The notes under the pieces were generated by a model. That model saw only the letters and a program-made list of their open reading frames with translations, was not told the origin of the DNA and did not search any database. Shown piece by piece: positions 8,336-13,224 of a stretch of DNA of 42,307 bases. The position numbers were made by a program, and so were the translations under genes. The stretch is from Lentisphaerota bacterium (GTDB lineage: Bacteria; Verrucomicrobiota; Kiritimatiellia; PWTM01), in NCBI GenBank assembly GCA_016873715.1, contig VGWF01000024.1, positions 1 to 42,307 of the forward strand, given 5' to 3'. Numbering within the stretch: position 1 is the stretch's first letter; the number at the start of each line of letters is the position of its first letter.

Positions 8336-10150
8336 TCAGGCGGATTGCGGCGCCCGGCCGTGGAAGGCACGGAACGAGGCGGCCTCCTTGCGGCCGAGGA
8401 ACCGGCCGAGGATCCTCTCGTTGATCTCGAGCAGGTCGACCCAGATCAGCCCGTCCAGCACGTCGCTGAACTCGGGGTCCACGTTGAACCCGAGGAGCTT
8501 GCCCCCCAGGCGGAGGTACTGCCGGAGCAGGATGGGCACGCCCTTGCGGTCCTTCTCGATCTCCGCGATCAGTTCGGACACGTCGTCGGGGTCCTTGACC
8601 ACGCGGCGGAACACGTCGGCCTTCCACCGCTCGCCGCCCTTGTCCCGGGCCGGCGGATTCCGGGGCTTCACGAACCGCGCCCAGCGGATGTCGAAGTTGT
8701 TCGCCCGGAGGAACTGCACCATCATCTGCCGCGAGAGGCTCTGGTACTCGTTGTTGATGCTCACCGGCCCGATCATGTGCCGGTAGCGCGGCTCGCGGAG
8801 GATCACGCGGCCGATCCCCTTCCAGAGGAGCAGCAGCGGCGAGTAGGAGCGCTGGTACTCGGGGCGCACGAACGAACGCCCGAGCTCCAGCGACGGCCCG
8901 AGGGTGTCGAGCAGCTTCCGCGAGTAGCGGAACAGCGTGCTCGTGTAGAGGCCCTTCTTCCCGTGGCGCGCGAGGATCTCGTCCGTCCGCCCGATCCGGT
9001 AGGCGCCGACGAGCTGGCCCGCCTTCCGGTTCCAGACGAAGAGGTGGTGGTAGTGGTGATCGAAGCGGTCGAGATCGATCTCGCGCCCCGTCCCCTCGCC
9101 CGCCGCGCGGAACGTGACCTCGCGGAGCCGGCCGATCTCGTGCAGGAGCCGCGGGATCTGCGCCGCGGGCGCGAAGTACACGGCGAAGTCGTCCGCCTCC
9201 ATCAGGCAGGCCTCGGGCGGGAGCATCCACACGTCCTGCGCGATCGATTCCGCATGCAGCGGCGCCGCGACCGGCAGCTGGGGCGCGGGCTTGCCCGGCA
9301 CGGACGGGGACGCCGCCCGGCTGCGCAGGATGTAGGTCCGCAGGCGGAGGTAATCGATCATCTCCGCGTCGCCCATCTCCTTCACGCGCGAGAACGGGAT
9401 GAGGCTTCCGATCCGCATCGAGATCGAGCCGCCGCGCTTCTGCATGAACTCCCGCGGGAGCATCGCGGTGCGGAACCGGGGGTGGAGCATGCCGAGGATC
9501 TGGAACATCGCGCTGTTCCGGCCCTCGACGAAGACCGGCAGGACGGGGCAGGCCGCCATCCGGATCATGCCCGCGATCGTCGCGCTCCACCGCGGGTCCG
9601 ACACCTGCTTGTCCATCAGCTGCAGCCGCGACACGTCGCCCGAGGGGAACACCAGCAGCACGTGCCCGGCCCGGAGCCAGCGGACGCTCTCCTTCATCGG
9701 CCGGAGGTTCGAGTGCGCCGCGTCGTCGCCGCCGTAGGGGTCCACGAAGATCGAGAAATCGTGCATCTCCGGGATCCGGCGCATCAGGTGGTTGCCCACG
9801 AGCTTCACGTCGGGCCGGACCTTCCGCAGGAGGGCCAGCAGCACGATGCCGTCCGCCCCGCCGAACGGATGGTTGGCGACCACCAGGACCGGGCCGGTCT
9901 TCGGGATGCGCCCGACGTCCTCCGGCGAGACCTCCGCCCTCAGCCCGAGCGTCTTCATCACCGCCTGGCCGAACTCCGCGTCCTTCCCCTGCGCCACCGC
10001 GCCCCGGTACACCTGGTCGAGCTGGTCGAGCAGGAAGAACCGCTCGAGCGACCGGCGCATCATGCCGAAGAGCTTCTGGCGAAACGGATCCCGGAACGGG
10101 ACCCGCAGCGCGAACGGCGATGCGACTGGCGGCTCGTTGGTCATGCCCAT
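8336..10150 (-). CDS. olsF: OlsF-type bifunctional ornithine lipid synthase (PlsC-like plus OlsB-like domains)
   Basis: About 604 residues. The N-terminal domain is a 1-acyl-glycerophosphate-type O-acyltransferase: VANHPFGGADG (His94...Asp100) and LLVFPSG near 168. The C-terminal domain (about 310-560) resembles the GNAT-like N-acyltransferase OlsB: RIGRTDEIL, GLYTSTLFRY, LELGRSFVRPEYQR and LLLLWKGIGR. This order, O-acyltransferase first and N-acyltransferase second, is that of OlsF, which makes ornithine lipid from ornithine and two acyl-ACPs without separate OlsB and OlsA. Glycine or other amino-acid head groups are possible in relatives. Two ATGs (10150, 10144) are plausible starts; neither has a clear ribosome site. 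A TATAAT at 10183-10178 lies upstream. It converges on gspK with a 27-bp gap. Confidence 0.82.
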   Translation of the reverse strand: MGMTNEPPVASPFALRVPFRDPFRQKLFGMMRRSLERFFLLDQLDQVYRGAVAQGKDAEFGQAVMKTLGLRAEVSPEDVGRIPKTGPVLVVANHPFGGADGIVLLALLRKVRPDVKLVGNHLMRRIPEMHDFSIFVDPYGGDDAAHSNLRPMKESVRWLRAGHVLLVFPSGDVSRLQLMDKQVSDPRWSATIAGMIRMAACPVLPVFVEGRNSAMFQILGMLHPRFRTAMLPREFMQKRGGSISMRIGSLIPFSRVKEMGDAEMIDYLRLRTYILRSRAASPSVPGKPAPQLPVAAPLHAESIAQDVWMLPPEACLMEADDFAVYFAPAAQIPRLLHEIGRLREVTFRAAGEGTGREIDLDRFDHHYHHLFVWNRKAGQLVGAYRIGRTDEILARHGKKGLYTSTLFRYSRKLLDTLGPSLELGRSFVRPEYQRSYSPLLLLWKGIGRVILREPRYRHMIGPVSINNEYQSLSRQMMVQFLRANNFDIRWARFVKPRNPPARDKGGERWKADVFRRVVKDPDDVSELIAEIEKDRKGVPILLRQYLRLGGKLLGFNVDPEFSDVLDGLIWVDLLEINERILGRFLGRKEAASFRAFHGRAPQSA

Positions 10151-10177
10151 GCCGCCGGCCCGGCCGGCGACTCGCGA

Positions 10178-10183
10178 ATTATA
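10178..10183 (-). promoter_or_regulatory. -10 box for the olsF-like gene
   Basis: A perfect TATAAT on the minus strand 28 to 34 bp upstream of the two candidate start codons. No good -35 hexamer is visible at the usual distance, so only the -10 element is annotated. Confidence 0.5.
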
Positions 10184-10317
10184 CGGCCGCGCCCCGCCAT
10201 GCCCACACAAATCGGCTCCGGAGCCCGGCGGGCGCATCTCGGCCCGGTGCCGGGATGGCGAGGATGCCCGTACGGGCCTTCCGTTCGTCCGGGCCCGGCC
10301 CGCCGGCCGCACCGCGG

Positions 10318-10363: not shown

Positions 10364-11602
10364 ATGATCGCACGCATTCCAGCGGTGTGCCTCGCGGTGG
10401 CGGCCATCCTCCCGGCGCACGCCCGTACGTGGACCAGTTCCACGGGCAAGACCGTCGAGGCCGAGTTCGTCGGCATGCAGGGCACCACCGTGACCCTGCG
10501 GACGCCCGACGGCCGCCAGCTCGGCATCGCCATCGGCTCCCTGAGCGCGGCGGACCAGGACTACCTCCTCGCCCGACCCCGGGCCGAGACGGCGGCGAAA
10601 CCGGCGGGGCGCTCGCCGACCGACATCCTGGCCGAGATCGCCCGCGTCGGCCCGACGACGCCCGCCTGGTGGGCCACGGTGCAGATGCGGACGCCCTCGA
10701 CGCTCGACCTGACCGGAACCTACCGGCCCAAGGCGTGGGAGCCGCAGAAGGCCTACGGCGCCTACTTCTGGTCCATCATCAGCCCGAATCCCGGCCGCTG
10801 GCGCGAGGGCATCAAGCTGCACACGCAGGCGATGGAGGTCCGGCAGAAGGACAAGGACGCCCTCCTTCAGTGCATGAGCAGCCTGGCCGACGCCTATCTC
10901 CGCTACGAGAAGGACCACGCCCGCGCCGCCCACTGGTGGACGCGCGCGATCCAGATGGGATGGTCGCCGCCGCCGGAGCCGGCCGCCGGACTCGCCGAGT
11001 GCTTCTTCCGGCTCGGCAGCGCGACGATGGCGGCCGAGACCCTCCGCAAGCACGGAAGCGTCTGCGGCGCGGCGGTGAAACTGCTGGCCGAGATGGGCGA
11101 CACCGACGGCGCCATCCGCATCGCCGAGCAGATGGCGCAATCCACGCCCGAGGCGGGCCACGTGTACGCCGGCAACGTGTGCCGGCTCGCCGGGGACCTC
11201 GCCCGCGCCGCCGGCTACTACGAGAAGGCGCTCGCGGTGAAGCACGGCGGTCGCCGGCTCGCGCAGTACCAGCAGCGCGCCCGCGACGCGCTCCAGGCGA
11301 TGGAGCTCTACGACAAGCTCGACGTGTCGCGCGTGCGCGATGGAACCCACCAGGGGTCCTGCGCCGGCTACCGCGGCCCCGTCGAGGTGCAGGTGAGGGT
11401 CGCGGCCGGACGGATCGCGGAGGCGCGCGTCTCGCGGCACCGGGAGGACGAGTACTTCTTCCATCTCACGGTTCCCGAGCTTCCCGACCGCATCGTGAAG
11501 GCCAACACCGTCAAGGGCGTCGACACGGTCACCGGCGCGACGGTGACCGGCGAGGCCATCCTCAACGCCGCCGCCCAGGCCCTGCGGTCGGGCATGAACT
11601 AG
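10364..11602 (+). CDS. Secreted SHD1 - TPR-like - FMN-binding domain protein
   Basis: 412 residues. A signal peptide (1-20, ending PAHA) is followed by an SHD1 domain (RTWTSSTGKTVEAEFVGMQG to SAADQDYL, about 21-70), common in Planctomycetes and relatives. The middle (about 140-310) is helical and TPR-like. The C-terminus (about 335-408) is an FMN-bind domain as in RnfG, NqrC and NosR, with DTVTGATVTGEAI: Thr393 in the TGAT motif is the expected site of covalent FMN attachment by ApbE, which is not in the window. Such proteins shuttle electrons outside the cytoplasmic membrane. The polyferredoxin gene starts 15 bp after its stop, so the two probably act as one chain. The SHD1 plus TPR plus FMN order is unfamiliar to me. 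The start ATG is preferred over an in-frame TTG two codons upstream. Confidence 0.82.
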   Translation: MIARIPAVCLAVAAILPAHARTWTSSTGKTVEAEFVGMQGTTVTLRTPDGRQLGIAIGSLSAADQDYLLARPRAETAAKPAGRSPTDILAEIARVGPTTPAWWATVQMRTPSTLDLTGTYRPKAWEPQKAYGAYFWSIISPNPGRWREGIKLHTQAMEVRQKDKDALLQCMSSLADAYLRYEKDHARAAHWWTRAIQMGWSPPPEPAAGLAECFFRLGSATMAAETLRKHGSVCGAAVKLLAEMGDTDGAIRIAEQMAQSTPEAGHVYAGNVCRLAGDLARAAGYYEKALAVKHGGRRLAQYQQRARDALQAMELYDKLDVSRVRDGTHQGSCAGYRGPVEVQVRVAAGRIAEARVSRHREDEYFFHLTVPELPDRIVKANTVKGVDTVTGATVTGEAILNAAAQALRSGMN

Positions 11603-11616
11603 GACCGCCCCCGCGC

Positions 11617-13224
11617 ATGCGCTGGAACTGGTACCGGCCGCCGCCCCCCCGACGCCGGTCGTTGCGCCACCGCGTGCCGGCGCTCGGCGCCGGCTGGGCC
11701 ACGTCGCCGTGGCGCAAGGCGACCCAGACGCTCTGCCTGCTCGCGTTCGGCGCGCTGGTGTTCCACGTCCTCCGGCCCGAGGCGCGCGACGCGGCGGCGG
11801 CCTTCGAACGGCGCGAGATCGTCGAGGCGGAGGCCTTCCTGCTGCTCGATCCGCTCGTCGGAACGACGGCGGTCCTCGCCTCCCGCGCCTGGCACGTGTC
11901 CCTGGCCTGGGCGGCGGCGGTCCTGGCCGCATGCCTCGTCGTGCCGCGTCTCTTCTGCGGATATCTCTGCCCTCTCGGCACGCTGATCGATCTCGCGGAC
12001 TGGGCGGCCGGCCGCCACCTGCGGCGATTCCATCTTCCGGCGTGGGGCGGCTGGACGCGGATCAGGTACGCCGTGCTGGTCGCGATCGCCGCGGCCGCGG
12101 CGGCGGGCACGATGCTGGCCGGGTTCGCCGCGCCGATCCCGGTCCTGACGCGCGGACTCGCCTTCGTCCTCGGTCCGCTCCAATCGCGGTTGATGAACGG
12201 GGCGGACGCCGGCAACGCCGCGTTCGCCGGCACGGCCGCGGGCGCCGCGATCCTGGCCTTCACGCTGGCCGCGACGGTGCTCGGCCCGCGCTTCTGGTGC
12301 CGGGTTCTGTGCCCCACCGGCGCACTGCTCTCTCTGGCCGGCCGGGCCGGATTCCTGCGGCGTCGCACCACGGAGCGCTGCACGCATTGCGGCGAGTGCG
12401 AGTCCGTCTGCACCTTCGGCGCGATCCGGGACGACCACACCACGCGGGATACGGAGTGCACCACCTGCCAGCAGTGCGGCGGGGCGTGTCCGGCCGGCGC
12501 GATCGATTTCGTCATCGGCGCCGGCGCCGCCCCGGCCCCGTCGCCCCCGGCCGCCGAGGGCCTTTCGCGGCGCGCACTGCTCGTCGGCGCCGCCACCGGT
12601 CTCCTGGGCGGCCTGGGCGCGTCGCGCGCCGCGGCCCCCGGAGCGGCGGGCGCGGTCGAGCCGCCCCTCCGCCCACCCGGAAGCCTCCCGGAACCCGCCT
12701 TCCTCGCGGCGTGCGTCCGGTGCGCCTCGTGCATCAAGGGGTGTCCGACGGGCGTGCTCGTCCCCACCGCCCCGGGTCATGGATTCCACTCGCTGTGGAC
12801 GCCGCGCTTCGACGCCGACCGCGCGGGCTGCGCGCCCGACTGCGCCATCTGCGGACAGGCCTGCCCGACCGGCGCCATTGCCCCGCTGCCCCTGGAGGAG
12901 AAGCGCCGCGTGCGCGTCGGCCTCGCGGCGGTCGACATCGAAACGTGTCTGCCTCACGCGGGAAAGCAGGACTGCCGGCTCTGTGTCGACGCGTGCAAGG
13001 CGGCCGGCTACGACGCGATCGAGTTCATCCTGACCGGCGTCGAGATGGACGCCTCCGGCGCGCCGGTCGAGGACACGGGCCGGCTGGCCCCGTCGGTGAT
13101 CGCGGACCGTTGGGGCGGCTGCGGTCTGTGCCAGGCAATCTGCCACCGGATCAACGTCCGCGAGGCGCCGACGCTGGCCGCCTCCGCGATCGTCGTCCGG
13201 GCCGGCGGTCAGCGGATGAAGTAG
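11617..13224 (+). CDS. NapH/NosR-like membrane polyferredoxin fused to an exported NapG-like ferredoxin
   Basis: 535 residues. The N-terminal part has about four to five hydrophobic helices and the NapH/NosR/CcoG motifs FCGYLCPLGTLIDL (Cys114, Cys118) and FWCRVLCPTGALLSL (Cys228, Cys232). Next come two [4Fe-4S] ferredoxin motifs, CTHCGECESVC (255-265) and CTTCQQCGGAC (281-291). At 317-336 a second signal-like stretch appears, LSRRALLVGAATGLLGG, with a twin arginine and hydrophobic core. It is followed by further cluster motifs: CVRCASCIKGC (366-376), CAPDCAICGQAC (405-416), a group at 444-460 and CGLCQAIC (502-509). This looks like NapH joined to NapG through an internal Tat-type segment. With the FMN protein upstream it should carry electrons from quinol or cytoplasm to an extracytoplasmic acceptor; the acceptor is unknown. 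Its 3' end overlaps the convergent DUF4019 gene by 16 bp. Confidence 0.85.
   Translation: MRWNWYRPPPPRRRSLRHRVPALGAGWATSPWRKATQTLCLLAFGALVFHVLRPEARDAAAAFERREIVEAEAFLLLDPLVGTTAVLASRAWHVSLAWAAAVLAACLVVPRLFCGYLCPLGTLIDLADWAAGRHLRRFHLPAWGGWTRIRYAVLVAIAAAAAAGTMLAGFAAPIPVLTRGLAFVLGPLQSRLMNGADAGNAAFAGTAAGAAILAFTLAATVLGPRFWCRVLCPTGALLSLAGRAGFLRRRTTERCTHCGECESVCTFGAIRDDHTTRDTECTTCQQCGGACPAGAIDFVIGAGAAPAPSPPAAEGLSRRALLVGAATGLLGGLGASRAAAPGAAGAVEPPLRPPGSLPEPAFLAACVRCASCIKGCPTGVLVPTAPGHGFHSLWTPRFDADRAGCAPDCAICGQACPTGAIAPLPLEEKRRVRVGLAAVDIETCLPHAGKQDCRLCVDACKAAGYDAIEFILTGVEMDASGAPVEDTGRLAPSVIADRWGGCGLCQAICHRINVREAPTLAASAIVVRAGGQRMK

Follow-up and report, generated by a model that had tools for sequence, protein, structure and literature searches.

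Two adjacent genes in the window, the 42,307-nucleotide stretch of Lentisphaerota DNA analysed here, encode an exported flavin-binding protein (gene 1) and a fusion of NapH- and NapG-like polyferredoxins (gene 2), and their conservation in four genomes shows that they form a real unit. We propose that the pair is probably a variant of the NapGH quinol dehydrogenase that ends in a flavin and relays electrons outwards to a periplasmic acceptor encoded elsewhere. This proposal draws on the domains and motifs of the two proteins, the conservation of the pair, the grouping of the paired fusions in one clade and the presence of ApbE in the genome.

Domain architecture of the two proteins

The preliminary description of this DNA read the gene 1 product as an exported protein with a C-terminal FMN_bind domain and a TGAT motif, and the predicted signal peptide, the Pfam match and the DTVTGAT sequence at residues 387-393 bear this out (Table 1). 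The FMN_bind domain scores 45 bits against a Pfam cut-off of 22, and the SHD1 domain 28 bits against 23.7. Several models match the TPR-like helices, each below its own cut-off. DTVTGAT fits the published flavinylation consensus [S/T]G[A/S]TX[S/T] (PMC5928378), and from its motif the protein probably carries a covalently bound flavin. The position of the motif makes Thr393 the predicted acceptor, the residue first named. Folded alone with AlphaFold2, it gave a mean pLDDT of 42.

On the same strand, 14 nt separate the stop of gene 1 from the start of gene 2. The first 300 residues of its product match NapH (2.4e-21) and residues 318-509 match NapG/MauM (8.6e-20), both NCBIfam scores lying far below the curated cut-offs; a Fer4_5 match (PF12801) reaches 2.2e-15. 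The protein contains 29 cysteines. Two NapH and four NapG motifs can be placed, the last one partial, in agreement with the earlier count of at least six cluster motifs or partial motifs. Three [4Fe-4S] motifs of the part predicted to be exported are complete and the fourth retains three of its four cysteines. Residue 499 is encoded by TGG (window 13111-13113), and the paired fusions of G328 and G603 have cysteine there and a complete cluster.

Hydropathy predicts four helices, at about residues 34-52, 96-114, 152-170 and 204-222, and together with charge it would place the CX3CP motifs and the NapH clusters on the cytoplasmic side. The segment after SRRALL is weakly hydrophobic and falls short of the hydropathy cut-off for a helix. 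NapH-like helices followed by a twin arginine and a weakly hydrophobic fifth segment are the layout of a dual Sec/Tat polyferredoxin; with the NapH and NapG matches and SRRALL at residue 317, the protein can be read, as it had been from the first, as a NapH-like polyferredoxin joined to a second ferredoxin through an internal twin-arginine segment.

Table 1. Features of the gene pair, in window coordinates
Feature	Position	Strand	Remarks
Gene 1, exported SHD1-TPR-FMN_bind protein, 412 aa	10364..11602	+	start ATG 10364
Predicted Sec signal peptide MIARIPAVCLAVAAILPAHA, AHA cleavage site, residues 1-20	10364..10423	+	read from sequence
SHD1 domain, residues 17-68	10412..10567	+	Pfam PF03983, 2e-06
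TPR-like helical region, about residues 96-320	10649..11323	+	kept in homologues
FMN_bind domain, residues 335-407	11366..11584	+	Pfam PF04205, 1.8e-11; genome search
Flavinylation motif DTVTGAT, residues 387-393; predicted acceptor Thr393 at 11540-11542	11522..11542	+	
Gene 2, NapH-NapG fusion, 535 aa	11617..13224	+	start ATG 11617
First CX3CP motif, C114-P119	11956..11973	+	invariant in four pairs
Second CX3CP motif, C228-P233	12298..12315	+	invariant in four pairs
NapH cluster 1, C255/258/261/265	12379..12411	+	
NapH cluster 2, C281/284/287/291	12457..12489	+	
Internal twin-arginine signal/anchor SRRALLVGAATGLLGGLG, residues 317-342, SRRALL at 317	12565..12642	+	
NapG cluster 1, C366/369/372/376	12712..12744	+	
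NapG cluster 2, C405/409/412/416	12829..12864	+	
NapG cluster 3, C444/453/456/460	12946..12996	+	
NapG cluster 4, partial, W499 in place of first Cys, C502/505/509 kept	13111..13143	+	

Conservation and phylogeny of the pair

Besides the window, three other genomes, G328 (L100), G348 (L125) and G603 (L173), have the two genes in the same order, either adjoining or with overlapping ends, which upholds the earlier treatment of them as a two-gene system. The four genomes belong to four different families, spread over three classes of the phylum. In G328, found in a class sample of 346 genomes, the FMN-TPR protein is directly followed by a fusion 43% identical to that of the window; in G348, from a phylum sample of 388 genomes, the genes have overlapping ends and the fusion ends close to the contig end; G603, among 198 genomes of the class of G539, has a complete pair. 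FMN_bind genes number about two per genome, so that repeated adjacency by chance would be negligible, and because the pair is kept in three other genomes chance adjacency can be excluded. FMN_bind was found at the site of the NapH-NapG fusion in none of 57 relatives. A contig scan with gene 2, which used single-sequence patterns and was the sole search outside the phylum, returned distant relatives only.

Three of the four paired fusions have RR as the twin arginine, and that of G603 has RK. In the paired FMN protein of G348 (L125:1393-2694), DATTHAT stands where DxxTGAT would be expected. This departs from the published consensus; either it is doubtful that the protein is flavinylated, or the motif allows more variation than has been published.

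A maximum-likelihood tree was built from 44 fusion proteins, four of them paired. The paired fusions, mutually 38-45% identical, form a single clade with support of 100/99 that appears in 100% of bootstrap trees, and none of 500 label shuffles scored as low as the paired-fusion grouping. Among the fusions examined, about 40 related NapH-NapG proteins have no adjoining FMN_bind or flavin gene, and those in the neighbouring branch, which likewise have no FMN gene, are clustered with DUF6599, DUF362 and an aldo/keto reductase. With a single clade of paired fusions, and sister fusions that have no FMN gene, the flavin partner is thus a trait of one old fusion lineage. An apparent DUF6599 - DUF362 - fusion - Tat-type aldo/keto reductase cluster recurs in five loci (L034, L035, L036, L104 and L105; Pfam-confirmed in L035), and looks like another role for this membrane module. 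TPR-FMN relatives with no adjoining fusion occur in G323, G325, G326, G539, G610 and G612, at loci that include L101-L103, L172 and L174.

All paired FMN proteins have a TPR-like region and an FMN domain in common. Pfam SHD1 was detected in the window protein only, and not in the paired proteins of G328, G348 and G603, so it is probably not essential; those of G348 and G603 have a short stretch at a position similar to that of SHD1. This N-terminal module is also present on at least five other proteins of the window's genome. On both counts SHD1 was set aside as a conserved recruiter, and the suggestion in the preliminary description that it recruits the acceptor is now doubtful. Recruitment of a partner by the TPR region, which is kept in all pairs, is possible.

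Genomic context

The upstream neighbour is a divergent gene (window 8339-10312) in which acyltransferase and GNAT acetyltransferase domains are joined, and downstream of the pair lie a convergent DUF4019 gene and a nucleoside-H+ symporter gene. As had been noted at the outset, the neighbours examined include no nos, nap or rnf gene; nor do they include NapA or NapB, which would mark a Nap system. Nothing persuasive was found in the way of inverted repeats upstream of the pair. A co-occurring third gene next to homologous pairs, a check proposed in the preliminary description, was also looked for, and no conserved one was found beside the pairs with usable flanks; the contigs of G348 and G603 are short and leave little flank, so that one could be missed there. 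No terminal acceptor gene was found beside the pairs either, which accords with the earlier view that the acceptor is not encoded next to them.

The search for ApbE that had been proposed yielded two genes in the genome, one on contig C4, within the Nqr locus, and one on C34. FMN_bind occurs five times in the genome, and two of the other occurrences are in the Nqr locus and the Rnf locus, the latter on C37. An Rnf or Nqr identity for the pair was rejected: the rnfG model scores 20.6 bits against a cut-off of 102, and the true loci are those on C4 and C37. Membership of the NosR/RdhC family was rejected since the FMN domain and the NapH module lie in two separate genes rather than in one polypeptide.

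Two further FMN_bind loci were observed in the same genome. On contig C43 (L056:7111-10995), a 1294-aa protein joins a SpeE-like (polyamine-aminopropyltransferase-like) first half to FMN_bind and a NosR/NapH-like membrane domain; comparably sized ORFs with FMN_bind as well as NapH-like matches were seen in about 17 of 58 relatives. On contig C121 (L057:5368-8916), the gene for an FMN_bind protein adjoins TRAP transporter TAtT and DctP genes.

Relation to described systems

The preliminary description called the system undescribed, a claim that is not supported, because both of its constituent arrangements have been published. NapH-NapG fusions are known dual Sec/Tat proteins, and Tat-dependent export of the C-terminal side has been shown by reporters for one member (Tooke 2017, PMC5449189). 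NapH-like systems with a separate FMN-binding gene have been reported in 539 clusters (Meheust 2021, PMC8238504).

Gene 2 resembles the polytopic polyferredoxin of MLMS-1 (Q1NSB0, PMC5449189), in which a four-helix NapH is fused to NapG via a twin-arginine fifth helix, with clusters on both sides of the membrane. Whereas the MLMS-1 protein has seven clusters, here there are six motifs, one incomplete, and an adjoining flavin-protein gene. The pair shares with the NapH-like flavinylation systems (PMC8238504) a NapH-like Fer4_5 membrane protein that adjoins an exported FMN-binding protein, and it shows the arrangement by which Meheust 2021 recognised them, a PF12801 membrane protein gene clustered with an FMN-binding gene. 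It differs from them in that NapG is inside the membrane protein and the FMN protein carries TPR and, in the window, SHD1. With NapGH of Wolinella and E. coli and Qdh of Sulfurospirillum (PMC4585668) it has in common the NapH/NapG cluster layout and the proposed quinol-to-periplasm route; here, however, the two are fused, NapA, NapB and NapC are not beside the pair, and a flavin is predicted to be the carrier that follows. PceC/RdhC and NosR (PMC5928378) likewise combine FMN_bind with a NapH-like CX3CP membrane module, but their FMN domain lies within the membrane protein, whereas here it is separate and NapG is fused instead.

What is new is the combination of NapH-NapG with FMN, the TPR flavoprotein partner and the sparse, ancient distribution. 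We found no published description of the fusion combined with a flavin gene in a search that mostly lay outside subscription journals, and the supplementary tables of Meheust et al. may include such loci.

Proposed relay and alternative functions

NapGH passes quinol electrons to periplasmic reductases (PMC4585668), and flavin proteins stand in for cytochromes in such electron chains (PMC8238504). With this in mind, we infer flavinylation, a topology, an electron donor, a direction of flow and a partner for the pair as follows. The gene 2 product would be a five-helix inner-membrane protein, whose NapH half would take electrons from a membrane or cytoplasmic donor, most likely menaquinol, and pass them through two cytoplasmic-side [4Fe-4S] clusters. 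The NapG half, exported by Tat via the internal twin-arginine helix, would carry them across four periplasmic clusters, the last one altered in the window. ApbE is predicted to attach FMN to Thr393 of the gene 1 protein, which would be soluble, periplasmic and reduced by NapG, and whose TPR region may dock a partner encoded elsewhere. The domains, motifs and conservation of the pair are those expected of an extracytoplasmic flavin/iron-sulfur electron-transfer system, as first proposed. Several findings count against the outward relay: the failure to find an acceptor or a conserved third gene beside pairs with usable flanks, DATTHAT in G348, RK in G603, and the TPR-FMN relatives that have no paired fusion.

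If the relay is correct, a flavin carrier can come after NapG and not only after NapH, and the rule by which flavins and cytochromes substitute for one another outside the cytosol would become broader. The pair would also be a small system of two genes whose predicted path runs the whole way from membrane to periplasm, suited to reconstitution, and its TPR part makes partner choice by the carrier a testable question. A bolder form of the same idea, which we offer tentatively, is that the pair represents a distinct ancient branch of periplasmic electron transfer in which the TPR flavoprotein replaces the NapC/NapB cytochromes after the fused NapH-NapG and is the adaptor on which several alternative reductases, encoded elsewhere in the genome, would dock.

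It is unlikely that the same pair is instead a dedicated periplasmic metal or siderophore reductase, in which the reduced FMN-TPR protein would free iron from complexes imported by TonB-dependent receptors. Flavinylation clusters have been linked to iron uptake (PMC8238504), and in G539 a TPR-FMN relative is followed by a TonB-dependent receptor gene in the same direction (L149:171-3637). TonB receptors occur in 7/7 TPR-FMN genomes checked, a figure with no background rate for comparison, and each of three paired genomes searched has one, that of G348 adjoining genes for apparent Fur- and DtxR-type regulators (identified by eye). However, direct TonB adjacency was seen once only, in a genome without the pair, and an iron transporter was seen beside none of the pairs.

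Inward flow, in which the FMN protein receives electrons from a periplasmic dehydrogenase and hands them back through NapG-NapH to the quinone pool, seems to us quite unlikely: no dehydrogenase gene lies beside any pair and characterised NapGH runs outward, although Meheust et al. did find NapH-like flavinylated systems beside alcohol oxidases (PMC8238504). Another reading is that, rather than serving bulk respiration, the pair helps a metalloenzyme to mature or to be repaired, in the way that NosZ needs NosR. A sparse distribution would suit a dedicated helper of this kind, and NosR has FMN and NapH modules in common with the pair (PMC5928378), but such a role is improbable given that no nos gene or other obvious client is nearby and none co-occurs in the loci examined. 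That the genes are chance or decaying neighbours with no joint function is hardly credible, for while one NapG cysteine is gone in the window and G348 and G603 have odd motifs, order and adjacency are kept over three classes at about 40% identity and the paired fusions form a single well-supported clade.

Other loci encountered in the survey show further combinations of these modules. In G328 (L114:8811-17921), a further fusion lies near a second NapH-like protein, a PQQ-type beta-propeller and a NuoE/NuoF-like fusion. Exported nitroreductase-FMN_bind fusions were seen at L106:7756-8874 and L110:569-1534 (by Pfam) and at L109:8321-9328 (by sequence similarity).
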